DNA of 50,224 nucleotides from IMG/VR virus record IMGVR_UViG_3300042888_003016, positions 1-50,224 of that record; one strand, 5' to 3'. A program made the translations under genes and the position numbers. The stretch comes from a virus. Shown here in pieces: positions 3,001 to 50,224 of this stretch. How positions within the stretch are numbered: the stretch's first letter is position 1; each line of letters starts with the position of its first letter. Under the pieces are notes generated by a model. That model had not been told where the DNA came from and made no database searches. It worked only from the letters and a program-made list of their open reading frames with translations.

Positions 3001-6000
3001 AGATAAGACAACATTTGACAGAAGTTGCCGACCTTCTCCCCGATGGAACAAATGAATTGCTGAGAAAAATACAAAATAGTGAAATTGAAGAAGAAGATGC
3101 ATATGAATCTCTTTCTAGATATGTTGGCGATTCAGAATCTACGCAGCCGGTCTCAAAATTGTGGTTCAACACGGCAGCACCATTGTTTTCTGCAAATAAC
3201 GAAACATCCGATTTACTAAAAGTTTTTGAAAACGACAAAAAAAATCAAATTAATAAATTGTTCGCAGAAATTGCTTTTGCAGAAATTAATTTTTCTGAAG
3301 AATCTCCTGAAAAAATAAAAAAACAAATACAGGAATTTGTTCAAACAAATCCAGTAGACGGAATTGGTTCTAGAGGTATTTATATTGAACCAACCACCGC
3401 CGGCAAAACACAAAGCGCACTCGAGAAAAAACAATTAGAATTAATATCAAAATATGACGGAACGTCAGAGTCCGCAAAAGAAATAATTGACTCACTCACA
3501 GAAGAACAGGTAAGAAAACTCTGGGCAAAATACATATTCCCAAGTTTTTATAGAGTCACTGGAACTGGACCAGGCTCATTTATTAGAAAAAGAAATCAAA
3601 AAGCTTCTGCGGAAAGAGCACAGCAAGTACTAAATAGGCTTGAGGATAAGTTCAAGAATTCCATTTATGGTTTGGGTGGTTTCGTTGATGCAGACGGATA
3701 CTCCGCCGATGACGTAAATATGTTAATTTCCGATGCAATTGAAAACTCTTTTGGCGTAGCTTCATTGGAAAGTTTAAGCAAAGAGGAAAAGAAGGAGTAT
3801 GTTTCCCTTGTCGGATATTTCCTTTCCGGCGGCAGGTCTTTGCTCGTAAAAGGAGAATATACCGAAGCTTTGAGAAAAATTGATTTAGAAAAAACCCCAA
3901 AATCCATACAGCAAAGAAAACTTGAGAGAATTGACAATGAACTCTCCGAGATACTAAATGATGCAGGCGACAAAATGGATGAAGCCGTTTCTGATTTGTT
4001 GGGTGAGTATAGAAACATGTCTCCAGAGGAACTTGAAATTCTTCGTAAATTAGAAGAAGAATTTGGTGACACCAAAGATGAAAGCACATCTCAAGGGGGT
4101 GAATTTGCTGATGCGCCAGACGACTGGGAGGATAATGACCCATTTGGTCCTGTCGGCTCAATGGCAAGAAAGCCAGATGGCTTAACCGAAAAAGCCGAGG
4201 CACTTCTTGATGCGAACTTAACCCCTCATAAAAAACATGACCAAAAAGCACAAGATGAATTTGCATATGTTGAGCAAGCGGCAGCGCTTGAACTTAGAAA
4301 ACTTGGCTTGGAAACACCTGGAGGATTCTTCTATACAGACTCTATTGATGATGGAATTGACCCACGAATTGAGGCTTCGTATGTTGCCGAAATAAACAAG
4401 CGTGTTGATGAGCTTTTCGAAAACAGCGAGTTTAGAAGAATGAAGAGTGGCAAGCTTGTTTATATTCCACAAAGACTTATTGGAGGGGAATCAGCAAGTG
4501 CAGAAGATGAGTTAATACCATATAACCCAGAAATGGATGAAGACGAATCACTACGTCCATCAAACTTTAATCCAGATAGACACCCAATAGCATCCGCCCT
4601 GAATGAAAGATATGAGTCATTTATCGGCGGAAACAACAACCACTTTACTAGGGATTGGTTTGGTGAAAATGGAAGATATGGAACAGATGCACAAAATCTT
4701 CTTGGGTTAATCAATAACGAACCCGGGCTTATTGACATGGACAAGATTTTGACTTATGTTCAAAATCAAAGTGGCTGGATTGAGGGTGAGGACCTTGAAG
4801 AGTCAATGAGGGCTGCCGAATCGATAAGTATTCCTATTGTTCCCGAAAGATACAGGTCGGGCGGCAGTAGATTCGGAATAAGTTCATTTTCTTCGCAAAG
4901 AAGGCTTAGTGCTACTGAAAAAATAGAACTTGACAAACAGAAAAAAATAGCTCGCTCAAAAGCAAAGTCAAGCAAAGCTCTCCGCGATGGCTGGCTAAAC
5001 GACATGACAACTGGTTTAATGCTTAGCGAATCAGAAATAGGTTTGCGTGATGGATACTACCCGGATGCAGTCTTGGCTGGAATAAAATCCGCACTTCGTG
5101 AAAATGGGCAAATAGATAACCTTGATTCAGTAATAAGAGCCGCAAAAAATGCATCTGATTCTCGTTCTCAGGCAGAATCAAGAGTAAAAGCTTTGGCAAG
5201 AGTTATTGAGATTACGCAAAATTCGGGTGATTTGATTAGCGAAATATACGACATTGACAATGCCATAAATGAGCTTGATGATGCGGCAGACAGAACATCA
5301 CGCCAGTACCAGGAAAGAATACGCTCCCAAATTCTTTCAAGAGTAAGCGCAACTGCATCATTGATAAAAGCAAGAGAAATGTTTATAGCAGACCAAAAAG
5401 AAAAAATTCGTTCAAGAACAATAGCTCCAAGAGATTATCTAATTTCAATACAAGAATGGGATTCTCGATACGGTCCACAAATTCTTCAAATGCAAGCCGA
5501 AATACAATCATTTTCTACAAAAGCAGAAGCCAGTTCTCGCACTAGATACGACATAATGGTGCAAAAAGATGAGCTACAGAAAAGAGCAGCAGAGCTCAAA
5601 GACATGGTTGCAGACTCAGCAAGATATATGAATGTCTTGATGGCCCAAAGAGCGGTAAACGAAGCAATGAAGAATCTTGCCGACAATAACGGCGACGGAG
5701 TAGCTGGTTCTGGTCCTGTCGGTAGTATGAAAAAAATTGGTCGCTTATTTGGTGAATCTGGTGTGGTGAGTGGTTTTGATGAAAATGTTGATGATACTTC
5801 AAATGTTTATACTCCATTCAATATATCAATGACCAAAAAAGAAAAAGCATTAAGTAATGTGATTTTGTCTCAATTGCGTTCTGTTAATGGAATACAAACA
5901 ATTGACCTAGTAGAGAATAGAACTGCTCGGGCAAGACAGAGAATTGAGTCCTACAGACAGAGCGTCCAGTCTTCTCCGGTCGGGGCGGTTAGGGGTCTGT

Positions 6001-9000
6001 CAAACGAAATACAGGACATTCCCGAAGTGCTCAAGAGCGTATTGCAAGATGAATACAATCGCTCAATTGGCAAAATGCTTGCATTTGAAAACGAAAACGA
6101 TATTAGAAGCCTAGTTAATGCTTCTTATACCCCTCAGTTAACTCCTAATCCAATTGGTCCATATGTCATACGGCCATATGATGACCCATCAGTTACCTTG
6201 GAGCCTGAATCAAGTGGGTATTTTGGGTATGAGGAGATGCTCCCACCAACCGACAAGAGACTGCGTATTTATTACGATGCATTACGCAAAGAAGTTGAAC
6301 GGGTTGGCGGTTTTGTAATAAATCCTGGCGGTAAATCGACAAACGACGAAGGCAATAACCATAAGTGGGTTCAGGGTATGCCTGTTTATCATCAGGCAAA
6401 TGTGGATGCAGTACCATCAATCATCAAAAATGGTTTAAACAGCCGTGATGCCATGCGCATAGACGGCTCGCAGTCGCCTATTGACAAAACCAAAAAAGTT
6501 CCATCCGGGAAAATATGGCTTGCATCAACTCCCGCAATATGGGACGAACAGGCTCCACGTCAATTTGATGGGATAGTTACTATGAGAATCATGCCCGACG
6601 CAGATATGATTTCCACCCTAAATAGACACTATGCAAAAAAAGAAAAAAACTGGGACGGACTTAGCAGAAGTCCAGATTATTCAACAATTGAATTATCTGA
6701 TGCAAATATTTCCCCTAAGACAATAGAGATTCTCAACGAGCAGGGAGAATGGATTCCATTACTGAAGGCATATTTTACGACTTCGCCAGGAATGCCATCG
6801 AGGACATCTCAAATTCTTAACGAAATAGATGGTGGTGCGGATATATATTCCCTTGCAAGAAAAAACAATATGCCGATTACGGAGATTTTTTCAATTGCAG
6901 CAATTAGGGAATCACTTTTGGCGAATGTTAAACACGATATACAAAAACTGACCCTTAGACAACTTATAAATAAATACGGTTTTAGCCAGACAAGACTTAT
7001 AAACGCAATTGATGCTTCCAAAAAAGCTAACAAATTTAGAAAATCATACTCGCAGATGATGAAAAGATTTAACGAATTAGCACCAACAAACACCCTTGCT
7101 TCGTCGTACGAAATTCTAAATGAAGAATTTCCAGAAATTACAAAAATAAGGGGAATGGGTTCTGCAGCCAAGCTAATTACACTTAATGATGAGTTATTAG
7201 ATTCTGTAAGAGAAAAAATATCTAGAGCAATGAGACTTTTTTCAGACTACCCAAACATGGTTCCCCGTGTTGCAGCAGGCCTGACTGGTATTAGTCAGGA
7301 TTCAGCCAAGTCTATTTACAAGGCTTTACTAAATGATGAAAATAGAACTCCAAGGCCGGTGCCAACCGCTATCCGGGCAAGTTCACCAATGCCCGCCGAC
7401 TGGGACTACATGACATATGGAGAAAGACAGGATTGGCTCAGTTCGGATGAAGCAAAGCAGAGAATGGGCGCTCGAGCCAGAGGCTTTGCCGCGCAGCGAA
7501 ATGCAGAAGACATCGAATCATCTGGTTCAATGGATGGCCCATACGGAGCCATTGCTTCAGCTTTGAAAAAAGCAAACTTAGACAAAGATATCTATGGAAC
7601 AAATTCAAGTGACGAAAATGGAGTCAGCCCGACATTCTCCTGGAGGGGTCTAAAGGACTCAGACTTAATTAGAACTGGATTTTTGTCAACATCAAAGTTT
7701 ATTGAATCTATCCCAAACTTGCAAACTCTTAATGATGAAAATTTTGCGGTATTTTTAAACACATCGCCAGCTATTGCCCAAAAACTTAGAAGTGGTAAAT
7801 TCAATCTTTCTTTTAATGCTGCTAGAAAGCTTGCTTACTCAATAGGAAAAAATCCAGAAAATATATGGCCTACATATGCTGCGTCAGAACAGAAAAATGG
7901 CCCGGATGGCGACCTTCTTTGGATTTCAGGCAACTGGTCAGAAATGAAGCCAGTGTTTGAATCAATTGAATCAGGACAAAATGATTCGGAAATATCGGGA
8001 GCACTTGGGCGCGCAATTAACCCCAAAATGGCAACTGCTAGAAAACTTGCGACCAATGGGAAGCTTGAAGATTTCTACAAACAAGTTGGAAAAAAGAATC
8101 CAAGCATTGATGAAGTTTCTAAATTTATGTCTTCTTTAATGCCAGAATCAAGAAGGGAAACTGTTGCATCTTTCGCTAAAGCAGGGTATAGCGAATCTGA
8201 GATTGTTGAAACAACTGGATTTAACCCAAACACGGTAAGAAATCTTCTTCATGAACTGAGGAAGTCCGGTATGGCCCCATCCTCTATTGGCTCACAAGAA
8301 TGGATTGCAAAGAATAGAAAAGCAATCGTTGATGACATAGAATCCGGAATGTCAAAGAGACAAGCAATGCGCAAGTATGGAATAGGCGCAGCTGCTTTGA
8401 ACTCGGTAATTCAGCCAAAAGAAGAAAACGCAAGACCTAGGCAGTCGTTTAGAAATGCATATGAAGAAATGGCTTCTGGCCCTTCGGGTGCAATGTCAAA
8501 TCGAAGAATAGCAAGTGATGCCTCCCAGTCAAATGGCCCAACCCCAGAATGGGACTCGGAAAATCCAGAAGTTGGAGTATTTCTTCCAGATTCACCACCG
8601 GTTATGGTTGGAAGCCCGTTTCATGGGCCAATTGAAGCACGTAAGTTCTCAGACGGAGAACCCAAAGACCAAGAAGCTTTGGATAAATGGTTCCCAGGTC
8701 TTGTAGATTTGCTCAAATATCATGTTAATGGTGGAGAGCTGTTTGATTCCTCGGTTGAGTCAGAAGAAGACGCCCCAAGCGTTTATGCAGAATCAGAAAA
8801 AGACAGAACCAAGCCAGTAAATGAAATGATTAGAGCAAATCAATTCCCTGGATTGATTAGGTCAATGCGGCACATGATGGGCGAATCCTACAAGCAGATG
8901 GTCGCCGAACAGCAGGCAATTGAAGAGTTCGGACCAGATGGGTATTCTGAAAGAGGAGATAGCGCACTAGAGCGAGAATACCAACCAGGTTTTATTGATG

Positions 9001-12000
9001 TTGAGTCAATCACATCTCTTGATAGTCCAATTGCAAAAGAAATCATGATGATTTATCGTTCTCTTGGAAGGGTTACATCGGGTTTTGTTCCTGGGGACTC
9101 AAGCTGGATTAATGATGCAGTTCGTTTGATGTCCAGAGATTCAGAACTTGAAAAAATAGGACTAAATGAGGATTCCCGAAACAAAATAAAAGAGTGGATG
9201 AGAACAGCTACAGCTCGTGAATTTAAAGCTGCGCAGGCCATGTCGGCAATTCACTCAATGATGATTGATGTTGTGAATGATGTCAATAGTGCAATGTTTC
9301 CCAATAATCAATTTACTGGCAGAACAGTTGCGGACGACCAGATGCTCGGATGGTATTTTGACAGAATTTTCAAAGCAATATATGACGAAGCCGATTCATC
9401 ATTTGTTCTTGAGGATATATCTAGAGAAAAAGGTGACAGTTTTGTTCGTCTTAATCCAGAGCAAATCGAAAGATGGTATGACTCCACAAAGGACATTGGC
9501 GAAACAATGGCTGCCCTTTTTGCTGACGCAATAGAATTTTCTTCAACTAATTCAAAGTTTTCAGATGATTCGTTTAATATGCTTTCGGTTGCTCCAAGAA
9601 AAGCAGCAGATGGAAAATTCTCCATATACGGCCCGGACATTGTTTACAGCGGCATGGAGGATTCAAGACCATACAATAAGGCAGTTAAATGGTTTGCTAG
9701 ACCTGGCACGGAAGAAGAAGTTGAATCCCTGTATGATTCTTACGAAAAATCTCCAGATGCTTATTGGTGGCAGGGTGAAGACGGCCAAATATCAACGACT
9801 GAGCCAATCACAACAAAAGACATTCTATCAATGGATTCTGGTGGAGAGTTCTCTGAATACATGAGAATACTCACTGAGTCAATTGCTGAATCACCAGACG
9901 AAAATGCCTCCGTAATTCTCAGACAGCTTTTTGGAATAACCCCGTCTGGTGGAACATCTCTAAATAAAGACGAGCTTGCCCTCAATCAGGCCTACTCTCA
10001 GCTGAGCGGTTTCCTAAGAGGAGAAGTTGATTCTCTTAAAGAAAACAGGACGAGAGTTTCGGAAAATATGACAATGTCTTCATATTTCCCATGGGTAAAT
10101 TGGTCAAATTCATCAGATGCATACCCAGTAATTTCTGGAGACATACAGTCACTGCTTACCCCAGAGCAAGCAGAAAGATATGAGAAAATAAATACTTTTA
10201 CACAAGAAAGAATAGATTCTCTTGATGGGGCAGCTAAAGCCGCATATCAAAAGTATGTGGAATTAGCAAAAAATACATCTGCCATTAACAATTTAAGAAA
10301 AACTCGTGGCAGATTAGACGAATCATTAAAACCATTAGACAAAGTTTTTGAAGAAATAAAAAAATTACAGGAGAATCCTGAAAACGCATCTGAAACAGTT
10401 GGCCTTCTTGCAGAATTACAACAATTTGCCGAAGAAATTGGTGCTCAGCAAATCGCCGACACAATTGACGGAATTGCGATGAAAATTTTTGAAGCGCTTC
10501 AGGGTAATGCAACAGATTATAATCCCAATTTTAAAGATGCAAAAACCCTTATGTTAAATTTAGTACAAAACGAATTTGCTCAATACTTGAAATTTTTTGA
10601 TTCTGCTATGAGCGTAGGTGACGCTTTTGAAAAAATTGCACAATTTATTAAAGCGGAAGACAAAAAAACACGAAGAAATTCATTAATGCCAAGATACAAA
10701 CGAGAAGTCATTGATGCTGCTCCAGCTTCTACATTCTCAACAGATTTCAAAAATATAAGAACTTTTGATTCTTGGCTAAATGACAACGGTTATGAAGATT
10801 TGACATACGAATACTACTCATCGGCAGATGAAATACCTAAAAATTTCTTTGGCGAATCTTCGGAAATAAATGATGACAGAATTGTTCCACCTGGTGATGG
10901 TCCCATAGGCAAAATGGCACTGAATAGATACACCAAACCAAACATCATGTCTGTTGTGCACGCTCACGAAGAAGCAAAACTTGGTAAGTCCAGTGAGGTA
11001 ACAATACCCTACCTACTGCTTGGTCTTGCAAGAGAAAACATCGGTAAAAAGTCTGTTAACCAAAGCATTGCCGGAAGAGTGCTTAATAGACTGGGTATTA
11101 GTGTTAACGACCTACGTGACGCAATAAGTAAAACATTAACCCCAAGCACGAGTGATGATTCAGGGAAAGTTGCTTCTTTGAGTTTTAGCGCTAGAAAAAC
11201 AATGATTAACTCAGTAAGGGAAGCCCTTAATCGTGGTGAAAACATAATTGATACAGAACACTTAATTGCTTCAATTGCCAGAGCAAAAGATGGAAGAGAT
11301 GATGGTCTTTCCGAAATTCTAAAGTCTCTTGGAACCAGCAAGTCAGAGCTACTTGCAGAGAGTGTTTCCACAATGAAGAGATTCTCAATGGGTCGATTCC
11401 CCAACGAGAGTGGCCCAATTGGGAAAATGGGTATTGCGAGAGATGCTACTTTGCAAAGGGATAGAGAAATTGAAGCGCTTAGAGCTGATGAAAACGCATC
11501 AAACCTATGGTTCAACAAAGACAGAAACCCTGGAATCAGAAACAATACAGCCTCCGACTCGGAGCAAGTACAAGAACTACAGAGACTGATGGACTTGTAT
11601 GTTTCTGGTGTTGCAGATAAGAGTATTTCAGCAAACGACTTCAGAGAAGGAACATCACCTTTTTCTTCAGACTCGATTCTTCCTACCAATTCCTCGCTTA
11701 TATATGGAGAAATAGGAGAAGAGCCATCAGATATTATTGGAGCAATTGCATATCGTTCAAATCTGATAGATGCAATGATTGACCGTTCTGGCAAGGATTA
11801 CAAGGATTACACAGACATTATTGCTAAAGCAAAATCACTCTTTAACAATGACAAGCACATTGAGCTATTCAATGATGATTCACCAACCGGCAGAATGTCA
11901 ACATTTGATGGTTTAATTAAGTCCTATGAAGGCATATACGGCATGCCTACGATGCAACCTCAGGACGAGTACTACGAATCTGTTTATGGAACAAGAGACA

Positions 12001-13673
12001 TCGCTTCGGACAGCCTAAGAAGAGCCGCCTACACGGTATCAAAGTACTCACCGCTAGATATAAGCAAAAACCTTACATCTGGCGATGACGATGATGTTGA
12101 ATGGTCAACGAACAACTGGTCACTTGCCAAGAACAGGTTGATGCAGGCATCGGATGCCGTAATCGTAAGAATGAACAACAATGATTTGCGTTCTGCTGAA
12201 GTACTCATGATTGACAGGAAGAGTGGACCATTCACAAACGCAAAAGCACTTGTCGGTGGACTGCGAGATGGCAGCGAAGACTACATGACTACCGCCACAA
12301 GAGAAGGACTGGAAGAGGTTGGTATTGACCTTGAGTCTTCAATCGAAGCAAGACCGCTTGGCATAATAACCTCACCAGACTGGGACCCTAGGTTTGTAAA
12401 AGGTGCAAGAGTTGGTGCCGGTTTGTTTATTGTTCCATGGGATTCAAATGTAACAGCTGCTTCAGACGCAAAAGCTGCAAGTTGGGTACCACTTGAAGAC
12501 ATAGCAAGAGGAAAATATCCAATCGCATTTGGACATGCTGAGTGGTTGAGAAGAGCTGTTGCCAAAATGGGCAAAGATTACGAAGGCTCAAACTCCGCAG
12601 ACCCATTTAGCGACTTGAGACTATCAATAGCGCTGAGACTAAACATACTTGCAAAAGCTCAAAGAATAAGAAATCAAAGAATACTTGCAAGAATAAACAA
12701 AGTACGTTCTGAAAAAGATGCAGAAAAATTCCTGCCCAACGACAAGATGCCACATCCTTTAATGCCGTGGGGTGCAGAATTTAAGAGCGACTCATGGAAT
12801 CCAGATGGTCCTGTTGGCAAAATGGCAAGACCATCAAGACCAATAGTCGACAAGTCACTAGCTCAAGACCTTGGACTTCTTGACTATCAATCTGGATACT
12901 CGATTGATGAACTTAATTCTTCTAGTCCAATTCCTACATCTCAAAAATATAGACTTAGTGGGAATAAAGTTTCCGATGATAGATACAACGGACTCTGGAT
13001 TCCGTATATGGAGAATAGTATTTCCAGAGTTTCAAAGCCCGAATTTAATGAAGGAAAAGAACAGCCAACCGTTTATGTGCTTGGTGGTTCTTCGGGAACT
13101 GGAAAAACTATCGCCAGAACTTCTGGATTTTCGGGGATACCCTCATACAACGATGCTGTAGTTATTGACCCAGACGATGCAAAAATGGTTATGCCGGAAG
13201 CACGCTACTGGTACGAAAGACAACTTCCCGACGCTGCCAACTTAACTCACGCAGAATCTCGTGCTCTGGCGGCTTCATTAATGAGAAGAGCCAGTTCCGA
13301 AGGAATTGATATGACCTACGATACAAGTGGTCAGTTCAACGACGGCAACAAAGACCTGATTAACTGGAGGAAGGCGGGGTACAAAATTGTTGCCCACTAC
13401 TTCTTTTCACCAGATGATGTAATTCTAAAAAGAAACGCAGAAAGATTTGAAAGAACTGGAAGAATGGTCCCTGATTGGATTCCTCCAGTGATAAACAGAA
13501 ATCTTTACTTTCAATTACCAAACCTTGACGCTTTCTTTGATGAGCTGTTTGTCTATGACACAACAAATGACCCGATGAACCCAATAATGGTTGCTCGAAG
13601 GGCAATTAACGAGCAGTTGGAAGTAATGGACCCCAAACTCTTTGATTTTGCCAATTTTGACAAAGGAAGGTAG
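1..13673 (+). CDS. Giant polyvalent (multidomain) phage protein, 5' partial
   Basis: One uninterrupted frame of more than 4540 codons ends just before the capsid gene. The first ATG is at 45, but the frame is open back to base 3 with no stop, so the true start probably lies outside the window. Long helical segments alternate with recognisable domains: ART-like (about residues 2110-2220), several HTH segments (about 2300-2790), two Clp-N repeats (3625-3790), a Nudix hydrolase (box at 4072-4094) and a zeta-toxin-like P-loop domain (Walker A at 4347-4355). A [G/S]PxGxM motif occurs 11 times, mostly at domain borders. Such domain mixes are known as phage 'polyvalent proteins', thought to be delivered with the DNA and cut into effectors. 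The position before the capsid gene supports a virion-associated protein. Delivery and cleavage here are inference. No signal peptide or transmembrane segment is evident. Confidence 0.85.
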   Translation, partial: SGSWSPLANYAQSSMYLDYRNKKNRKNLDIANSIDASQQEVFGEISELMLTLRERVANNTLKLADYAKSYDQKTGTLSLDFYNPKRPTSALGDSPGLLKSITMLLAIATANSRNGKERSQARQVLNELLDWAETYLPQYSRIRPGNNKELSELIANGPVGRMGVQEAYEATENKKYKTLRGRLNAFENKSQSIIFDSVADRNPVSKLKELESELDDIISEGWMNSRVLASLFETISGHMDDAFEEGISERTRKRMRPVFDGFANVMKAKYDKDYAEAFGMISLDSIQRKRRRANSRTRQETRDSSPVGSMAAGYSPTRLDTAEMNKDSHLTEEFKNRWVAIDESNQKADEILSSNNPSLVSFPGNDITFNWQNESSRLKYLTTSDKNRLIKNFIRKPNGASFPSRLRKTQELDSSGLLEEIGVYGETFEKHPFFVTFHGDKLVKFATSPSDVNADANTIKKILGAIHPELNPETFEAIYQSWIRNPFITIDTNDGKTVGVRFGLNNNDTEMRNELRKRIRDVYDFVSRITGGKVPKAQYPAEKESAATAEAEFPLTMRGLANDFFRRIQPSLLNRGHSIESLSNIFNQNAEEMALPEIANREQLLKFLQENFPGIIKNLKPESSKLDGLTSDEVTEAVEIVSMLNDGTRVLNFGEIKQLLSTKENGYELWTDDAVEEVINTVNNYTSVSGGSQLIETGPVGRMSLPGEKPSEILRDEFEAARILRSMQKAKDMTPEEEDAYRKVQWARQELENVVEEDWVRFGPFDLTNAYRPLAERQSGNLSLYIRSLGDEAAMDMFKEISSKFPDTEKEESISDFESKIRTALSKAARGDEITPNYPDSWPPEMLDSDLNEILSPKEMAAVAQVEDALDRETLVSMLGGELLGSDPEETRQEILRIVESLPKINVPEEDGSSSSIKTPEQMSQDILIEAFDGTLASAKELVDSMSEQQLDSLRKSFPISDYAKNSFNIQNLQVQRASLIRQTSVAMAKLSQTEDGRNKIRQHLTEVADLLPDGTNELLRKIQNSEIEEEDAYESLSRYVGDSESTQPVSKLWFNTAAPLFSANNETSDLLKVFENDKKNQINKLFAEIAFAEINFSEESPEKIKKQIQEFVQTNPVDGIGSRGIYIEPTTAGKTQSALEKKQLELISKYDGTSESAKEIIDSLTEEQVRKLWAKYIFPSFYRVTGTGPGSFIRKRNQKASAERAQQVLNRLEDKFKNSIYGLGGFVDADGYSADDVNMLISDAIENSFGVASLESLSKEEKKEYVSLVGYFLSGGRSLLVKGEYTEALRKIDLEKTPKSIQQRKLERIDNELSEILNDAGDKMDEAVSDLLGEYRNMSPEELEILRKLEEEFGDTKDESTSQGGEFADAPDDWEDNDPFGPVGSMARKPDGLTEKAEALLDANLTPHKKHDQKAQDEFAYVEQAAALELRKLGLETPGGFFYTDSIDDGIDPRIEASYVAEINKRVDELFENSEFRRMKSGKLVYIPQRLIGGESASAEDELIPYNPEMDEDESLRPSNFNPDRHPIASALNERYESFIGGNNNHFTRDWFGENGRYGTDAQNLLGLINNEPGLIDMDKILTYVQNQSGWIEGEDLEESMRAAESISIPIVPERYRSGGSRFGISSFSSQRRLSATEKIELDKQKKIARSKAKSSKALRDGWLNDMTTGLMLSESEIGLRDGYYPDAVLAGIKSALRENGQIDNLDSVIRAAKNASDSRSQAESRVKALARVIEITQNSGDLISEIYDIDNAINELDDAADRTSRQYQERIRSQILSRVSATASLIKAREMFIADQKEKIRSRTIAPRDYLISIQEWDSRYGPQILQMQAEIQSFSTKAEASSRTRYDIMVQKDELQKRAAELKDMVADSARYMNVLMAQRAVNEAMKNLADNNGDGVAGSGPVGSMKKIGRLFGESGVVSGFDENVDDTSNVYTPFNISMTKKEKALSNVILSQLRSVNGIQTIDLVENRTARARQRIESYRQSVQSSPVGAVRGLSNEIQDIPEVLKSVLQDEYNRSIGKMLAFENENDIRSLVNASYTPQLTPNPIGPYVIRPYDDPSVTLEPESSGYFGYEEMLPPTDKRLRIYYDALRKEVERVGGFVINPGGKSTNDEGNNHKWVQGMPVYHQANVDAVPSIIKNGLNSRDAMRIDGSQSPIDKTKKVPSGKIWLASTPAIWDEQAPRQFDGIVTMRIMPDADMISTLNRHYAKKEKNWDGLSRSPDYSTIELSDANISPKTIEILNEQGEWIPLLKAYFTTSPGMPSRTSQILNEIDGGADIYSLARKNNMPITEIFSIAAIRESLLANVKHDIQKLTLRQLINKYGFSQTRLINAIDASKKANKFRKSYSQMMKRFNELAPTNTLASSYEILNEEFPEITKIRGMGSAAKLITLNDELLDSVREKISRAMRLFSDYPNMVPRVAAGLTGISQDSAKSIYKALLNDENRTPRPVPTAIRASSPMPADWDYMTYGERQDWLSSDEAKQRMGARARGFAAQRNAEDIESSGSMDGPYGAIASALKKANLDKDIYGTNSSDENGVSPTFSWRGLKDSDLIRTGFLSTSKFIESIPNLQTLNDENFAVFLNTSPAIAQKLRSGKFNLSFNAARKLAYSIGKNPENIWPTYAASEQKNGPDGDLLWISGNWSEMKPVFESIESGQNDSEISGALGRAINPKMATARKLATNGKLEDFYKQVGKKNPSIDEVSKFMSSLMPESRRETVASFAKAGYSESEIVETTGFNPNTVRNLLHELRKSGMAPSSIGSQEWIAKNRKAIVDDIESGMSKRQAMRKYGIGAAALNSVIQPKEENARPRQSFRNAYEEMASGPSGAMSNRRIASDASQSNGPTPEWDSENPEVGVFLPDSPPVMVGSPFHGPIEARKFSDGEPKDQEALDKWFPGLVDLLKYHVNGGELFDSSVESEEDAPSVYAESEKDRTKPVNEMIRANQFPGLIRSMRHMMGESYKQMVAEQQAIEEFGPDGYSERGDSALEREYQPGFIDVESITSLDSPIAKEIMMIYRSLGRVTSGFVPGDSSWINDAVRLMSRDSELEKIGLNEDSRNKIKEWMRTATAREFKAAQAMSAIHSMMIDVVNDVNSAMFPNNQFTGRTVADDQMLGWYFDRIFKAIYDEADSSFVLEDISREKGDSFVRLNPEQIERWYDSTKDIGETMAALFADAIEFSSTNSKFSDDSFNMLSVAPRKAADGKFSIYGPDIVYSGMEDSRPYNKAVKWFARPGTEEEVESLYDSYEKSPDAYWWQGEDGQISTTEPITTKDILSMDSGGEFSEYMRILTESIAESPDENASVILRQLFGITPSGGTSLNKDELALNQAYSQLSGFLRGEVDSLKENRTRVSENMTMSSYFPWVNWSNSSDAYPVISGDIQSLLTPEQAERYEKINTFTQERIDSLDGAAKAAYQKYVELAKNTSAINNLRKTRGRLDESLKPLDKVFEEIKKLQENPENASETVGLLAELQQFAEEIGAQQIADTIDGIAMKIFEALQGNATDYNPNFKDAKTLMLNLVQNEFAQYLKFFDSAMSVGDAFEKIAQFIKAEDKKTRRNSLMPRYKREVIDAAPASTFSTDFKNIRTFDSWLNDNGYEDLTYEYYSSADEIPKNFFGESSEINDDRIVPPGDGPIGKMALNRYTKPNIMSVVHAHEEAKLGKSSEVTIPYLLLGLARENIGKKSVNQSIAGRVLNRLGISVNDLRDAISKTLTPSTSDDSGKVASLSFSARKTMINSVREALNRGENIIDTEHLIASIARAKDGRDDGLSEILKSLGTSKSELLAESVSTMKRFSMGRFPNESGPIGKMGIARDATLQRDREIEALRADENASNLWFNKDRNPGIRNNTASDSEQVQELQRLMDLYVSGVADKSISANDFREGTSPFSSDSILPTNSSLIYGEIGEEPSDIIGAIAYRSNLIDAMIDRSGKDYKDYTDIIAKAKSLFNNDKHIELFNDDSPTGRMSTFDGLIKSYEGIYGMPTMQPQDEYYESVYGTRDIASDSLRRAAYTVSKYSPLDISKNLTSGDDDDVEWSTNNWSLAKNRLMQASDAVIVRMNNNDLRSAEVLMIDRKSGPFTNAKALVGGLRDGSEDYMTTATREGLEEVGIDLESSIEARPLGIITSPDWDPRFVKGARVGAGLFIVPWDSNVTAASDAKAASWVPLEDIARGKYPIAFGHAEWLRRAVAKMGKDYEGSNSADPFSDLRLSIALRLNILAKAQRIRNQRILARINKVRSEKDAEKFLPNDKMPHPLMPWGAEFKSDSWNPDGPVGKMARPSRPIVDKSLAQDLGLLDYQSGYSIDELNSSSPIPTSQKYRLSGNKVSDDRYNGLWIPYMENSISRVSKPEFNEGKEQPTVYVLGGSSGTGKTIARTSGFSGIPSYNDAVVIDPDDAKMVMPEARYWYERQLPDAANLTHAESRALAASLMRRASSEGIDMTYDTSGQFNDGNKDLINWRKAGYKIVAHYFFSPDDVILKRNAERFERTGRMVPDWIPPVINRNLYFQLPNLDAFFDELFVYDTTNDPMNPIMVARRAINEQLEVMDPKLFDFANFDKGR
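6361..6780 (+). other. ART-like domain within the polyvalent protein
   Basis: The translated stretch begins with a YHQAN segment followed by an 'I..NGL' turn and continues with a beta-rich SGKIWLAST segment and a 'GIVTMRI' strand. This order resembles ADP-ribosyltransferase/2'-phosphotransferase-like (ART) folds, which open with a Y/H-containing strand followed by 'I...GL'. ART domains are common in polyvalent proteins. I cannot identify the catalytic triad with certainty, so activity (modifying host proteins or RNA, or removing a phosphate) is unproven. Confidence 0.45.
6940..8420 (+). other. Tandem helix-turn-helix-like segments within the polyvalent protein
   Basis: Several short segments have the spacing of DNA-binding HTH units: LRQLINKYGFSQTRLINAI (about 6955), LTGISQDSAKSIYKAL (about 7280), a Cro/C1-like segment ending AYSIGKNPENIW (about 7780-7868), AGYSESEIVETTGFNPNTVR (about 8182) and SGMSKRQAMRKYGIGAAALN (about 8345). 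All lie between the divergent motif at 5973 and the GPSGAM motif at 8478. If that segment is released as one piece it would combine an ART-like domain with DNA binding. The HTH assignments rest on pattern only. Confidence 0.45.
10917..11429 (+). other. Double Clp-N domain within the polyvalent protein
   Basis: Two repeats match the Clp amino-terminal (Clp_N) pattern. The first has 'VVHAHEEAKLGKSSEVTIPY' followed by LLLGLARE and a GRVLNRLGISVNDLRDAI segment. The second has 'MINSVREALNRGENIIDTEH' followed by LIASIARA and an EILKSLGTSKSELL segment. Clp-N domains bind adaptors and substrates of Clp chaperone-proteases. The segment is bounded exactly by GPIGKM motifs at 10899 and 11412, giving a self-contained piece of about 170 residues. 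A decoy or recruiter of host ClpC is plausible but inferred. Confidence 0.75.
11898..12824 (+). other. Nudix hydrolase domain within the polyvalent protein
   Basis: Codons 12258-12326 encode a Nudix box: G, five residues, E, seven residues, then REGLEEVGI, close to the consensus Gx5Ex7REUxEExGU. A strand-rich segment and a GRxWVPLEDIA-type tail (here 'AASWVPLEDIA') follow, as in ordinary Nudix enzymes. The family hydrolyses nucleoside diphosphates linked to another moiety (NADH, ADP-ribose, capped RNA, damaged dNTPs); the substrate cannot be read from sequence. The motifs at 11880 and 12807 flank the segment. Confidence 0.8.
12825..13670 (+). other. Zeta-toxin-like P-loop kinase domain at the C-terminus of the polyvalent protein
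   Basis: Codons 13083-13109 encode the Walker A loop GGSSGTGKT. A 'VVIDPDDAK' segment follows, then a 'MTYDTSGQF' segment and a 'RNAERFERTGRMVP' helix, the order expected for zeta toxin/PezT-type kinases, which phosphorylate UDP-N-acetylglucosamine or similar small molecules. The preceding GPVGKM motif (12807) would free a piece of about 280 residues. No antitoxin gene is evident next to it. Substrate is unknown. Confidence 0.7.
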
Positions 13674-26174: not shown

Positions 26175-28103
26175 CTACTTTACTGGACACGCCCCTGTTG
26201 CGCAATCATCAAGAGATAGCTCATCCCCAAAAGCTGCTTGTTGCAATGGGGCGGAGAAATCAATTTTTGAAATCAGCTTCTCATAAACTTCCTTTGCAAC
26301 CTCCTCGTATGGTGGAAGTGGGAAATTATGGTCGGCGTGAAGCAGGAAGGATACCGACTTGACACCTTTGTCATAGTTCTTTGACAGCCATTCCTTAATG
26401 AGTTCAAGTTCTTCCTTGCGGTAATAGACAGTCACAGACACGGCATTGTCGGCCCAGACTGTTTGCATCTTTTTGACCCATTCGAGCTGCTCTACCGCAG
26501 TCATCGCAGATGCAAGGATTGCGTTCTCGGGAGATTTGCACGGAAACTCAACCACATATCGTGTGTGGTCTTCTCGTCCATCAATCCCAATATCCCAGAC
26601 AACCTTGTAACCACGCTTGCGACATGCTTCAACTAGCGGGTCGGACGAACCAAAACGAACTCGTCGGATGTAGTGACTTGCAAATGCTGGGTGAATACCA
26701 GGAGTAACGCCAGGAAGCAACGACAGCGTCCCCGATGGTTGTACGGTCGTCAGACGGACAGACTCAGGGAAATCATGCTGAAATGAATAGACTGCGTCCA
26801 CGGACCGCAGGTAGTTGTACCCACCAGACAGCCAGCCAATCTGCTCTTCGGAACACTGAAGGACTCCAGTAATACTCTGTCCGAGTCGTGCGTTTTTTGT
26901 AACCATGGCTACGGTTTTTTCGTATGGATAGTTCATCCGAGTGATGTGCTTCTGGGTCATATAGAGAAGCTTTGATACGGAATGAAGCTGTTCTTCGGAT
27001 TCGATGTTTGGGAGAAAAATTGTTGAGAGGTTGCATGACTCCCCATCGGCTAATGCGATTTCGGCACATGGATTGAAACCCTCAATTGTTGGGTCGGGGC
27101 GCTTTTCACCCAACCGGCCATACTGGCGCGCGAGCTTGCGGTTAACGAGACCGTATGGTTCTCCGGTTCCGTCGTAACCCTTCCACAGCTCTGGCATGAT
27201 TTCATCATAAGCATCGGCATAGATGCTGTTATTTGAATTTGCGCGCCATGCTGGGACACTTCCGGACGCCCAGTTTTTTGCACGAATGAAAAGCACATCA
27301 TCTGGGTCACCAATAGCAATCTGTGCGGAGCGACGTGACGAACCCGAAACAACAACTCGGCCAATGATATTGCAAATGTCAAGCACATCAATTGAGCGAA
27401 GCTTCTTGCCTTCACGATTCTGCATTACCTTGCTGATGTCGGTAATTCCATCAATGAGTGCCCCAGGCCCTGATGCCGTGCCGCCGAATGTCTTGAGTGG
27501 TGCGCCAAACTCACGAATCAAAATTGTCGAATACGAAAATGATTTACCAGTGTCAAAATATGACTTCAAAACTGCGTGCAGAAGGCGTTTCCAGCCCTGA
27601 CGAGAGTCTGGAACAATGATGTCTGCATCATTTGAGCGTTCGTGCGTAATGGATACGCCGGCTTTAACCTTTGGCAAGTCGTGAATCTTGGAGCGTTCTA
27701 CCGAAAATCCGACTCCACCGCCGAGCATCAAATACTCAAAAAGAAGTTCAAAGTCTTCGATTTTTTCAATGTTGGTGAAGTAGCAATTATTCAGGGATGA
27801 ACCACTGAACTTCTTAACCAGCGGGGTGCCAAGCTGCCAAAGGGCACGGCCCGAAAAAGAACAACGAAGATTGAACATGTGGTCAAACAGTTCTTCTGCT
27901 TCTTCTTTTGTGTATGGAACACCAATTTCAATTGCCCCATCAATAACTCGGGTGATTGTTTCTGGCCAAGTTTCGTTTCGCCCGAGTTCTTCAATCCTGC
28001 GGCTGTAGGTTCGTAGGTAAACGACCTCGCCGAGCCCACCAAAACCCCATGGTGGTGTCTTGGTTTTATAAGACGATAGAAATTCTTCGGAAAAAATTGA
28101 CAT
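26175..28103 (-). CDS. nrdJ: Class II (adenosylcobalamin-dependent) ribonucleotide reductase
   Basis: The 642-residue product begins with 'TPPWGFGGLGEVVYLRTYSR', typical of monomeric B12-dependent ribonucleoside-triphosphate reductases. 'NNCYFTNIE' holds an active-site Cys, 'NPCAEIALADGESCNLSTI' is the radical-site block, 'TVQPSGTLSLLPGVTPGIHP' is a conserved loop, and the C-terminal 'CATGACPVK' is the redox-active Cys pair. It makes deoxynucleotides for phage DNA synthesis; the phage thioredoxin at 41334 could re-reduce it. It depends on host cobalamin, common in Actinobacteria. The AGGGG ribosome-binding site can be hidden by a hairpin (28110-28127). Confidence 0.92.
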   Translation of the reverse strand: MSIFSEEFLSSYKTKTPPWGFGGLGEVVYLRTYSRRIEELGRNETWPETITRVIDGAIEIGVPYTKEEAEELFDHMFNLRCSFSGRALWQLGTPLVKKFSGSSLNNCYFTNIEKIEDFELLFEYLMLGGGVGFSVERSKIHDLPKVKAGVSITHERSNDADIIVPDSRQGWKRLLHAVLKSYFDTGKSFSYSTILIREFGAPLKTFGGTASGPGALIDGITDISKVMQNREGKKLRSIDVLDICNIIGRVVVSGSSRRSAQIAIGDPDDVLFIRAKNWASGSVPAWRANSNNSIYADAYDEIMPELWKGYDGTGEPYGLVNRKLARQYGRLGEKRPDPTIEGFNPCAEIALADGESCNLSTIFLPNIESEEQLHSVSKLLYMTQKHITRMNYPYEKTVAMVTKNARLGQSITGVLQCSEEQIGWLSGGYNYLRSVDAVYSFQHDFPESVRLTTVQPSGTLSLLPGVTPGIHPAFASHYIRRVRFGSSDPLVEACRKRGYKVVWDIGIDGREDHTRYVVEFPCKSPENAILASAMTAVEQLEWVKKMQTVWADNAVSVTVYYRKEELELIKEWLSKNYDKGVKSVSFLLHADHNFPLPPYEEVAKEVYEKLISKIDFSAPLQQAAFGDELSLDDCATGACPVK

Positions 28104-46664: not shown

Positions 46665-46883
46665 ATGGCCACTAACCCTTTTGAAATAAGGCTTTCGTTA
46701 ACCAATGCGATTGCTAACTCGTTGTTTGACATTGCTTTTGATGAGAGCATATCGGACAAAGAGCTTGCGCAGCAACTTGAAGATTACAAAGATGTTGCAT
46801 CAATGCTTCTTGAAGACCTCGGGTGCGAGGTCATTGAAATCAAAGACGGAAAGATGATTTGCTCCTTTAGTCCACAAAAATAA
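46665..46883 (+). CDS. Small acidic protein of unknown function before the non-coding array
   Basis: A 72-residue product starting MATNPFEIRLSLTNAIANSL, helical, then 'DYKDVASMLLEDLGCEVIEI' and a short beta hairpin 'KDGKMICSFS'. No family is recognised. Its stop lies 2 bp before the first CGGGACTA unit, so the array begins exactly where coding ends, and the promoter of this gene could transcribe into the array. Confidence 0.7.
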   Translation: MATNPFEIRLSLTNAIANSLFDIAFDESISDKELAQQLEDYKDVASMLLEDLGCEVIEIKDGKMICSFSPQK

Positions 46884-46885
46884 CA

Positions 46886-47104
46886 CGGGACTAGTAAGTG
46901 ACAGGAATAAATTGAAGCGCAGAAGGAGCGAAGCGACTGGTATTCCAAGGAAATACGGAAGGCCCCATTTACTCCATTTACGAATGGCTGTAGGCCGAAG
47001 GCCGTAAGCCTGAAGAGCGAGCAGCGTTAAATGGATAAATGGAGGGAGTATTACTTTGGAATGCGAGCAAGCAATTTTGCCGTAGATTTTTATTCAAATA
47101 TATT
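46886..47104 (+). ncRNA. Structured-RNA candidate, family P copy 1
   Basis: Shares fixed boxes CGACTGGT (about 46935), ACGGAAG and GGGAGTA with copies at 47916 and 48121, but with different helices between them. Here CCATTTA (46965-46971) and CCATTTA (46974-46980) pair with TAAATGG (47036-47042) and TAAATGG (47028-47034). An outer helix pairs ATTCCAAGG (about 46942) with CTTTGGAAT (about 47053). A GCC-rich hairpin caps the stem. Confidence 0.6.
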
Positions 47105-47915
47105 CGGGACTAATAAACAGACTTAGCATTTGCGTGCAAGGTCGCGTGCTGCGTAGTTGTTTATGTCGTTGTGCACGGCTCAGCGTGCAAGCGAAGCGTC
47201 ATAAGACATAACGACGAAGCATCTCGCGGACTGCATGCAATGCGATTGTTGTGATGAGACCCAACACGGGACTAGTTAGTTCATAAACATACAAAGCGAG
47301 TTGTTGCTTTTAGGAGCGGAGCCTTAGCGAAGGTTTCCAGAGCGTAGCCTGGAATCTGAGCGGAGGCTAAGCGATGAAAAGAAACACGAGTGGGAACTGT
47401 GATTAGGCTTTCCTCGGGACTAAATACCTACCGGGAACAGACAGCGAAGTTACTTTCTTTTCGAGCGGTGCGAGAGCGAGAAGGTTCCAGAAGCGGAGTT
47501 ATTTTGCGATTAAAGACTTTATGGGAACAAGCGAAGATGCGAGCGTTGAAGGACGAGAAGCTTGAATGTAAATAGTAAAACTTCGGGACTAGGGACTATT
47601 CAAGCGGTGAGTCGTTTGATGCGAGCAGTGAAGCGCAGTGTACTTAAAGGATTTAAGAGCGGGATAACGAGCAGTCTGGAATTTCGAGCGTTCGCTGAGC
47701 GAGGAAAGAAGTACGAGCAAAAGTTGTGCTGTGAGCCTACTCGGGACTATGAAGTATGTTTTACAGTCCATGTTCAACAAACAAGCTTTATGAAGCGTCC
47801 GGAGCTGCTGAAGACTGGTGGTAGCTCTTTTGCGGACACCGTCGAGGCATCTCCAGGTAAGCGAGTATGCGATAACTTTTATTCGATTCATAGATAGTTT
47901 TTATTCAATACGACT

Positions 47916-48120
47916 CGGGACTTACATATAAAAGGATTGAAGCGTGAACGAGAAGGAGCGCAGCGACTGGTAATTTCGAGAAAAACGGAAGAGACTCTTT
48001 TCTCGTTTTCTGGGTGGCTGCAAGCCCCCCAAGCGATAGCGGGAAAAGGAAAAAGAGAGGGAGTATTTCGAGGAACTACGAGAGAGCGATTCATCCGGGG
48101 ACTTTTCAACAAAACCATTA
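47916..48120 (+). ncRNA. Structured-RNA candidate, family P copy 2
   Basis: The conserved boxes CGACTGGT, ACGGAAG and GGGAGTA flank a helix of different sequence: CTCTTTT (47996-48002) with AAAAGAG (48052-48058) and TTTTC (48007-48011) with GAAAA (48044-48048). The helix is in the same place as in copy 1 though the bases differ, a covariation signature. The outer helix is weaker here. Confidence 0.6.
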
Positions 48121-48341
48121 CGGGACTAATAACCACAGGGTTAGGCGTGTGCCTGTTTTGAAAGGGAGAGAATCGACTGGTGGTTTTTAAAGTTTACGGA
48201 AGAGGCTCTTTTTTGTCTTTTTTGAGTGAGGTACGAGCAAAAGCGACGCTTTTTGGAGCGGTAAAAAGAAAAAAAGAGAGGGAGTAAAATTTAATAAACC
48301 ATGAAAAACGGCACTGCCAGGAGTTGTTAGATAAATCAACA
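48121..48341 (+). ncRNA. Structured-RNA candidate, family P copy 3
   Basis: Same fixed boxes around a third version of the helix: CTCTTTTTT (48206-48214) and TTTTTT (48218-48223) pair with the A-rich strand 48263-48278. The outer helix pairs GGTTTTTAAA (about 48182) with TTTAATAAACC (about 48290), with one bulge. Confidence 0.6.
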
Positions 48342-48484
48342 CGGGACTAACTTCTATAAGCCAACAAGCATTGCGTCTTTCTGTTCGATGTGAATGAGCG
48401 TGCTGGTAACGAGGTACGAAGTTACGCAAAGCGAAAGAACAACGAAAAAGAAAACGCATGCGGTAGCTTTTATTTGATACGACT
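48342..48484 (+). ncRNA. Structured-RNA candidate, family A copy 1
   Basis: Contains AGCATTGCGT and, near the end, ACGCATGC, which can close a long stem, plus hairpin GTAAC (48406-48410)/GTTAC (48421-48425). Family A copy 2 keeps both helices with changed bases. Confidence 0.6.
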
Positions 48485-48735
48485 CGGGACTTATGTGTAC
48501 TAGGACTATTTGAAGAGTCGCAATAGCGACGAAGTGTTATTTCTTGGAACGATACGGAGCGAAGAAGGTATGCGTAGGGAAATGTGAAGCGACGGAGTGC
48601 GACAGCGCTTCGGCGCTAGCATAAGCGAAGTGACCTTCTTTTAGCGAGGTATTGTGTAAAGAAATACACGAGGTGCGTTGTGGCGAAGCAAATGTCCGGG
48701 ATGTCGCAATCAAAGATAAACATCTACCAAAGTCT
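48485..48735 (+). ncRNA. Structured-RNA candidate, family B copy 1
   Basis: Shares long blocks with 49166-49413, including GGTATGCGTAGGG, CGACAGC and CGGCGCTAGCATAAGCGAAG. AAGAAGGT can pair with ACCTTCTT, and AGCGC-TTCG-GCGCT forms a very stable UUCG hairpin near 48604-48617. The unit ends with CTACCAAAGTCT before the next octamer. Confidence 0.6.
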
Positions 48736-48890
48736 CGGGACTAAGTACCTAGGTTGTCGGGCTGCCGACACCTGATGAGGAAGCGTAATTTTCATGGCCC
48801 CTGGTGGCGGACACGGAATCATGTAATGATTTCGAGGTCTTCCGCCCCATGTTAAATTTGCTGGTGCCAAAGCTGTTAGATAAGTCTGCA
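48736..48890 (+). ncRNA. Structured-RNA candidate, family C copy 1
   Basis: GGAATCAT (48815-48822) pairs with ATGATTTC (48826-48833) around a GTA loop, inside an outer GGCGGA/TCCGCC stem. The block GCTGGTGCCAAAG and TGTTAG near the end are shared with family C copy 2. Confidence 0.6.
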
Positions 48891-49025
48891 CGGGACTAAT
48901 AACCAAAAACAGTGAGCATTCCGAACGAAGCGACGTAGCCGCCGAGGCATCCCGTAGCTCGCGTAGGGAGCCTGGCGTCTACCGAGCAAGCGAGGAGGCG
49001 AGGAAAAGTCTCATGTTTGCCTACA
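48891..49025 (+). ncRNA. Structured non-coding unit without a recognised second copy
   Basis: A 135-bp unit beginning CGGGACTAATAACC. It holds several GC-rich inverted repeats (CGTAG, GCCTGGCG, GAGGCGAGG) but I find no paralogue in the window. It sits between families C and A in the duplicated block. Confidence 0.4.
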
Positions 49026-49165
49026 CGGGACTTATCTTTACAAACGAGCAAGCATTGCATTTTCGTTCGACTCGGAGCGAGCGTGCTGTGACAAGGCACG
49101 AAGTCACGCAAAGCGAGCGTAGGTCGATAAGAAAATGTATGCGGTGAGTGAGTAGTAAATGAAAT
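49026..49165 (+). ncRNA. Structured-RNA candidate, family A copy 2
   Basis: Diverged copy of 48342-48484. The hairpin is GTGAC (49088-49092)/GTCAC (49103-49107): the A-T pair of copy 1 has become G-C on both sides. The long stem is TGCAT/ATGTA instead of TGCGT/ACGCA, again a paired change. Confidence 0.65.
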
Positions 49166-49413
49166 CGGGACTTATGTGTAACAGGACTGTTCGACGAAAT
49201 GGTTAGCGACGAAGTGTTATTTTTTGGAACAAAAAGAAGCGAGGAAGGTATGCGTAGGGTAATGCGAAGCAACGAAGTGCGACAGCAATTCGGCGCTAGC
49301 ATAAGCGAAGCGACCTTTTGAGCGCACTTATTGTGCAGAAAAATACACGAGAAGCGGTCCATGAGGCGAATATCCGGGATACCGAATTCATAGATAAATA
49401 TCTATTCAAGTCT
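49166..49413 (+). ncRNA. Structured-RNA candidate, family B copy 2
   Basis: Diverged copy of 48485-48735 with the same order of blocks (TTATGTGTA, AGGACT, GCGACGAAGTGTTATTT, GGTATGCGTAGGG, GGCGCTAGCATAAGCGAAG). The long AAGGT/ACCTT stem is kept; the UUCG hairpin of copy 1 is weaker here. Confidence 0.6.
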
Positions 49414-49641
49414 CGGGACTAGATAATGGTTTGATGGTTGAAAAACAATCACGCAAAATCAACTTAGACAGATAAGAGAATCTAGGTGATTCTGGCGAAG
49501 CGCATGCGTAGACATGAATCAACGGTTGCCGGGTTGAAAAGCGTAGGGTTGTTCGAGCCGAGCAGCGGTGAGAACACACGAGCGTTCAACTCGGCAAAGA
49601 TTTGCTTATGTGGATAAGTTGGAACTCTATTCAAATATCCT
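49414..49641 (+). ncRNA. Structured non-coding unit inserted between families B and C
   Basis: A 228-bp unit with hairpin-rich stretches (AGAATCTAGGTGATTCT near 49478; GCCGAGCAGC and CGTTCAACTCGGC near 49557-49594). No second copy is seen. Its presence breaks the B-C order found at 48485-48890. Confidence 0.4.
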
Positions 49642-49796
49642 CGGGACTTGATACCTTGAGATGTCAGGTTGTCGCGCCGAGATGCTAGGCGTATTTTTAT
49701 GACCCCCCATGGTGCGGACACAAAATCATGTAATGATTTTGAGGTTGTCCGCCGTCATATAAATCGCTGGTGCCAAAGTTGTTAGGGGGGTTAGTA
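49642..49796 (+). ncRNA. Structured-RNA candidate, family C copy 2
   Basis: Diverged copy of 48736-48890, exactly the same length (155 bp). The hairpin is AAAATCAT (49722-49729)/ATGATTTT (49733-49740): two G-containing pairs of copy 1 (G-C and G-U) are A-T here. The outer TGCGGACA/TGTCCGCC stem is kept. Confidence 0.65.
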
Positions 49797-50224
49797 CGGG
49801 ACTTGATAGCGAAGATTTTGCAGCACGGCGGGCGTAGCGTGACTTGAGTGCGAGCATCGCTGTAGCGGACCGGGTAAATCGACTGAAGCTAGTGAGTGAA
49901 TTTTGTGTATACAAAATGATACGAGCGTTGCTGAGGGAGATTTCTCGGGTAGCGGAAGTGGGCGAGTGGCTCAGTCAAAGCGTAGAGCGTTTGTGCTGCA
50001 AATCTGGTAAGTTTTATTCAACTTGCTACGGGGCTAAATAACAAATTCAGGCGTTCGTTTCTTTCTGGGAACCAGAATAAGTGAGCAACGGTCAAGCCTC
50101 TTGACGAAGCGAAGTGGCTCGACAATTAATTGTTGCGGCGATTGCTAAAGGCATTAGCGATGACTAATCAATCACATGTTGGATAATCGGGACTAGAGAC
50201 TTTATACCGGGAAGCGCTAAGGTC

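Follow-up and report, generated by a model that had tools for sequence, protein, structure and literature searches.

What kind of genetic element consists of non-coding units in tandem, each headed by the same eight letters? The question is raised by a stretch of 50,224 bp (hereafter, the window) that forms one end of an IMG/VR phage record. A preliminary description of its sequence reported an array of non-coding, hairpin-rich units of no known kind, punctuated by the octamer CGGGACTW, with 18 exact copies and one variant in one orientation, 135–251 bp apart. A pattern count agrees with this in number and spacing: the window contains 18 copies, all on the + strand and all within 46886–50195, which is too many for chance, since 1.18 copies are expected in the entire window.

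The octamer array and its carriers

Relatives were collected by pattern scans and by scans with neighbouring proteins. The preliminary description had proposed following the array to the right and searching for others like it, and both steps were productive: the same locus was found in other phage contigs, and the array, which runs off the right end of the window, continues in the near-identical locus L257 to 27 octamers, eight units beyond unit 19, and closes there with a small zinc-ribbon-like gene. The complete arrays of the relatives comprise 17–27 octamers and 3.7–5.5 kb. In lineage A, five arrays are available with both flanks (L257, L258, L265, L261 and L264; 17–27 octamers). Locus L264 is located in G001, a genome of 173,962 bp that was taken as complete because of its 123-bp direct terminal repeat. 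The possibility of an assembly artefact, which the preliminary description had left standing, is excluded: different samples yielded several independent contigs with the locus, and this complete genome has it too.

Lineage B, represented by L280 and the near-identical L269, has about 26 units and the same gene order as lineage A: genes of a Dcm-type methylase and SSB on the other strand, an ORF of 72/75 aa, the array and the zinc-ribbon-like ORF. The stop codon of the 72/75-aa ORF is followed by the first octamer after 2 nt in lineage A and after 0 nt in lineage B. The 72-aa ORF shares 46–48% identity with its lineage B counterpart and has no Pfam or PHROG match; its product is predicted to fold as a helix-helix-beta hairpin (pLDDT 73), for which a fold search returned nothing at E < 0.001. 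Lineage C (L284) carries short runs of octamers at 76–541 and 4960–5343, the second of which begins 6 nt past the stop codon of a 148-aa ORF. In all lineage A phages examined, the zinc-ribbon ORF contains CAGTCCCG, the reverse complement of the heptamer (L257:15700-15720 and relatives).

The carriers are uncultured viruses of freshwater actinobacteria and make up a T4-like group. The capsid protein encoded in the window is T4-like, and the presence of WhiB genes in the relatives suggests that their hosts are actinobacteria. The tRNA genes of an array-bearing phage lie close to the array. The window also encodes a protein of 4542 aa (45–13673), which contains zeta-toxin-like kinase, NUDIX and Clp_N domains, and a phage B12-dependent ribonucleotide reductase (26175–28103).

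The full motif reads CGGGACT-W-NNN-A-N-Y and is preceded by W, with a sharp 5′ edge between this W and the core. The 53 non-redundant sites of lineage A give CGGGACT-A/T-R-N-W-A-N-Y after the same W; the motif of lineage B has the core, A+11 and Y+13 in common with it, and lineages other than A also admit C or G at position +7. Uneven conservation of the octamers among close relatives had been named in the preliminary description as a reason for doubt. When strains are compared, 25 of 3031 positions of the 7-nt core are different (0.8%), as against 14.8% in the remaining array, so that the octamers are about 18 times more conserved. A chance origin of the array is ruled out by this conservation together with the octamer count. 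The linkers on both sides of the core (−9 to −2 and +8 to +16) mostly evolve faster than average, with the exception of A+11 (5%).

Table 1. Units of the array and associated features (z, RNAalifold z-score; pair changes are two-sided changes of base pairs)
Feature	Position	Strand	Remarks
72-aa ORF directly upstream of array	46665..46883	+	stop 2 nt before first octamer
Unit 1, family 0	46886..47104	+	octamer 46886-46893; z -7.1; 11 two-sided pair changes
Unit 2, family 1	47105..47266	+	z -7.2; 49 pairs, 7 two-sided
Unit 3, family 2	47267..47414	+	missing from all but near-identical relatives; junctions exactly at octamers
Unit 4, family 3	47415..47583	+	z +0.2; structure signal not above control
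Unit 5, family 4	47584..47741	+	z -0.1; structure signal not above control
Unit 6, family 5	47742..47915	+	z -4.3
Unit 7, family 0, paralogue of unit 1	47916..48120	+	missing from L265, L261, L264
Unit 8, family 6	48121..48341	+	z -2.7; closing stem CUAAUAAC/GUUGUUAG
Unit 9, family 7	48342..48484	+	z -2.8
Unit 10, family 8	48485..48735	+	z -13.4; best-supported structure in window
Unit 11, family 9	48736..48890	+	z -2.4
Unit 12, family 10	48891..49025	+	z -3.8
Unit 13, family 7, paralogue of unit 9	49026..49165	+	
Unit 14, family 8, paralogue of unit 10	49166..49413	+	
Unit 15, family 11	49414..49641	+	z -5.1
Unit 16, family 9, paralogue of unit 11	49642..49796	+	
Unit 17, family 12	49797..50028	+	z -7.5
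Unit 18, family 13	50029..50187	+	z -1.4; starts with variant octamer
Variant octamer CGGGGCTA	50029	+	reads CGGGACTA in relative L258
Unit 19, family 14	50188..50224	+	cut by contig end; whole in L257
Three-box copies	L270 (G001) ~1608-1622, 2676, 5248, 5612, 5864, 8443	array strand	similar in L258, L261, L265, L286

Structured RNAs between the octamers

The array of about 19 units given in the preliminary description stands as an array, although not as one repeated unit: the units of lineage A, which are 120–330 nt long, fall into about 21 families of structured RNA, several of them with scattered paralogues (Table 1). A single fold common to all units was not seen, as the families differ, and no common unit sequence was detected between lineages A and B at BLAST sensitivity. 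Structure was assessed in 20 lineage A families, with family 2 left out, by comparing RNAalifold results with column shuffles. In 16 of the 20 the z-score is below −2.3 (−2.4 to −14.0), and families 3, 4, 13 and 14 give no clear signal. Both sides have changed in 140 of the 970 pairs. In family 8 (units 10 and 14), 96.7% of cells are paired, compared with 90.0 ± 0.8 in shuffled and 35–43% in slid alignments, and 19 of 74 pairs show two-sided changes, compared with 9.7 ± 1.9 in shuffles; the family surpasses 500 of 500 shuffles in percent paired, two-sided changes and covariation score, and the controls for family 1 agree. The compensatory changes characteristic of structured non-coding RNA are present, as shown by the 140 pairs and by the family 8 shuffles.

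Summed over families, the + strand folds contain 173 G-U-variable and 32 A-C-variable pairs, and the − strand folds 69 and 73, respectively. Because G-U rather than A-C variation prevails in the + folds, the structured strand is the + strand, i.e., the strand of the octamer. Coding or decayed genes between the octamers, another objection foreseen in the preliminary description, are ruled out by base-pair covariation and the G-U bias on the + strand, and the covariation and the folds bear out its portrayal of hairpin-rich non-coding units. Comparative sequence evidence thus gives good support to the RNA part of our reading, namely that the units are probably structured non-coding RNAs.

The lineages are connected by a preference for certain loops. 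In lineage A, the word CGNAG occurs 75 times on the + strand and 12 times on the − strand, and GCGNAGC 17 and 0 times; the corresponding counts for lineage B are 80 and 20 for CGNAG and 27 and 3 for GCGNAGC. In the consensus folds of lineage A, 105 of 182 3x3 internal loops are GNA/GNA, and the GNA motif, judged by eye, is also present in lineage C. Lineages A and B share a structural grammar of GNA/GNA 3x3 internal loops without homology of unit sequence. C(GNA)G triloops and GNA/GNA loops are very stable in DNA as well; both occur in the array, and G-T pairs are tolerated in DNA, so the structured molecule might be + strand single-stranded DNA. This is highly improbable: the array lies downstream of a + ORF and before + genes and is expected to be transcribed, and nothing points to a single-stranded DNA stage of the locus.

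Compared with control points, the octamers are spanned by fewer base pairs (medians 20 versus 37, p 4e-4; in the other two comparisons, 23 versus 42, p 3e-4, and 24 versus 51, p 6e-8). The octamers lie at the boundaries of RNA structures, inside fast-evolving linkers. The 5′ and 3′ ends of units pair better with their own partner than when swapped (p 0.012 in lineage A and 2e-4 in lineage B). In lineage A this signal fades beside the motif, and a closing stem was rejected as the reason for the motif on this ground. The motif is not always a free linker, because in some families it can pair with the 3′ end of its own unit, as its GGACUU/GGACUGG part can in family 8 and in the lineage C unit 300–373.

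Role of the octamer

We infer the role of the octamer, for which a promoter, an operator and a recombination site are live rivals, and likewise the transcription of a precursor, cleavage or binding at the motif and a role of the RNAs in infection. Our preferred reading, proposed tentatively and with a chance slightly short of even, is a phage non-coding RNA operon, in which a single precursor would contain about 17–27 RNAs and the octamer would be a mark for processing or protein recognition. Transcription of the + strand would start upstream of the 72-aa ORF, in the divergent region, and yield a long untranslated transcript with about 17–27 self-contained structured RNAs of 120–330 nt, joined by flexible linkers that each bear W followed by CGGGACU-W-NNN-A-N-Y. 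Most likely, the motif would be read in RNA by a phage or host protein, either a nuclease or an RNA-binding protein. Cleavage at the motif would release single RNAs and free the upstream mRNA, and the motif would remain as a common 5′ handle on each RNA. A single marked + strand precursor would explain the orientation of the motif, its position at boundaries, the constraint on the motif and not on the linker, the link with the stop codon of the ORF and the lack of terminators and promoters between units; intrinsic terminators and sigma-70 promoters at unit ends are not above chance. No processing nuclease was identified in the phage, and RNase III (PF14622) was not found there. The heptamer CGGGACU is complementary to AGUCCCG, a conserved stretch of 16S rRNA around position 1100. 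Pairing with rRNA was rejected, as the match stops at the heptamer, without extension at −1 or +7, and a match of seven letters is probably due to chance.

The distribution of the motif in the complete genome bears on its role. In G001 the array-type motif occurs in the array, with six sites of CGGGGCT variants on the other strand in the next few kb downstream, and none was found in the remaining ~160 kb, so that every copy lies within ~11 kb of the 174-kb genome. The sense strands of the 185 predicted G001 genes contain no CGGGACT, compared with a mean of 5.9 for permuted words; this avoidance is suggestive only, as 6% of permuted words are also absent. Downstream of the array, on the array strand, there is an intergenic element of three boxes: GCTATTYAGCCCCGC, which is the array motif inverted, CGGGACTGC and GACGGTGGCGGATGA. 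The spacing is variable, and the layout is GCTATTYAGCCCCGC - N36-81 - CGGGACYGC - N29-49 - GACGGTGGCGGATGA. The element is unstructured as RNA and is found in several copies per record (Table 1), some of them right behind a stop codon; the inverted motif reads GCNNNNNAGCCCCGC in these unstructured, repeated downstream elements. The three-box element suggests that the octamer word is also used at the DNA level, and this is the strongest reason for caution. In lineage C, a three-box-like piece (TCATCCGCCACCGTCATAAAAAATCC...) adds about 12 codons to the helicase gene (L284:2137-2178), an insertion that is missing from the helicases of L280 and the window; judging by this insertion, the element may be mobile. 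A further feature of the region, conserved among lineage A phages, is a pair of hairpins on the − strand (L270:1640-1700) with stems GTGCAG/CTGCAC and GCTGGTATGC/GCATACCAGC and GTCGGGA(CT) in or beside the loops.

The apparent DNA-level use of the word is compatible with the octamer being a promoter, or part of one, for a phage-modified or phage-encoded RNA polymerase, which would make each RNA its own transcription unit. T4-like late promoters can be only 8 bp, and the array motif is likewise short, a compact asymmetric sequence of ~15 bp that marks the 5′ edge of every unit, always in the same orientation. However, no other gene in the complete 174-kb genome is preceded by the motif, terminators between units were not found, and an upstream box is not shared beyond weak T-rich positions, with −9 to −2 evolving fast. 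There is no match to sigma-70 region 2, and a search for a single-subunit RNA polymerase, whose control gave no signal either, yielded no match. A promoter is an unlikely role for the octamer.

The sites are asymmetric, oriented, repeated and intergenic, and the phage, to judge by the WhiB genes, has actinobacterial hosts; the sites thereby also resemble operators or roadblocks, and the octamer may be a DNA-binding site of this kind between RNA genes. The stoperators of Cluster A mycobacteriophages, described in PMC9283540, are a precedent of short asymmetric oriented sites in an actinophage, and the inverted copies in the DNA-like elements fit this. In contrast to stoperators, which are spread across the genome, the octamers are confined to one locus, all copies being within ~11 kb; in lineages A and B they are set at RNA-structure boundaries, with the first copy right behind the stop of the 72/75-aa ORF. 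We consider this role improbable.

The turnover of units raises the possibility of a recombination site, with the units as cassettes in an integron-like arrangement of RNA genes. A comparison of the five arrays shows that whole units were gained or lost at least six times. Every junction falls inside the octamer, with tails and heads that otherwise differ on either side of it, and families are present as scattered paralogues. Integron cassette arrays likewise consist of modules joined, gained and lost exactly at a short conserved site; the modules of the present array, unlike theirs, are non-coding RNAs, no attC-type site was noticed, and no integrase was found among the array neighbours examined, nor any recombinase gene between the two small flanking genes. 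Furthermore, the unit order is conserved among lineage A arrays, partial (chimeric) exchanges of units occur too, and deletion or duplication between the 7-bp repeats of a recombining phage would account for the changes. The strong continuing constraint on every octamer would be needless for a used-up insertion site. Such a role is quite improbable.

Known systems and biological meaning

Within the collections and sensitivities searched, the array matches no known RNA family or genetic system. Neither cmscan with Rfam 15 at the gathering score nor the same search of both full lineages at E up to 5 gave a match in the array; on the full lineages it returned only tRNAs and weak sub-threshold matches overlapping them. 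No related locus was found in INPHARED, none was found with a single spacing pattern in a set of one genome per bacterial or archaeal species, and no similar arrangement was met in the open-access literature searched. Several candidates were rejected on inspection. The octamer pairs of L121 and L034 resemble coding Gly-Thr repeats, and L281 carries a 147-bp repeat inside an ORF. In a scan of 34 loci of bacterial genomes, the multi-match loci inspected are tandem or coding-like repeats with long identical units, and L294, L296 and L318, from a Desulfobacterales genome bin, are ordinary repeats of GCCTGAAGGCGGGACTACAAACTTT or similar that contain the octamer by coincidence.

The statement of the preliminary description that the array is not CRISPR, tRNA, GOLLD- or ROOL-like in unit size agrees with the results of ARAGORN and Rfam and with the repeat size. 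The tRNA arrays of large tailed phages also line up numerous short structured RNAs along a single strand, with cassettes gained and lost, but the present units, in which ARAGORN and Rfam found no tRNA, are 120–330 nt long, belong to about 21 unrelated families and have a common octamer linker. GOLLD and ROOL are large ornate phage-associated RNAs (PMC12286853). They resemble the array as large structured phage-linked non-coding RNAs, and the name of GOLLD derives in part from lake DNA; however, each is a single large RNA, whereas the array consists of 17–27 short units without an Rfam match. A CRISPR array also has a short common sequence at regular intervals that may serve as a processing mark and 5′ handle. 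Its repeats are ~23–47 bp, whereas the repeat here is 7–8 nt, of which only ~7 nt are invariant, and the spacers are conserved structured RNAs of 120–330 nt; no cas-like genes were present among the Pfam and PHROGs matches of the neighbouring genes examined.

Taken further, the operon reading becomes that of a new class of viral genetic system, which we put forward with somewhat less than even confidence: an RNA-cassette operon of about 17–27 different RNAs, mostly helices interrupted by GNA/GNA loops, which would be released or bound at the octamer, be reshuffled by unit and act together on the host. The RNAs could, for example, capture host RNA-binding or defence proteins as decoys or sponges, or they could be components of a single RNA-protein assembly. 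None of the units matches a described RNA family and, if they are expressed, the number of structured non-coding RNAs made from one locus would exceed the number known for most phages as a whole. The common loop grammar, the constrained octamer and the turnover of cassettes suggest a system under selection, and the set of RNAs is perhaps an arms-race repertoire against hosts.
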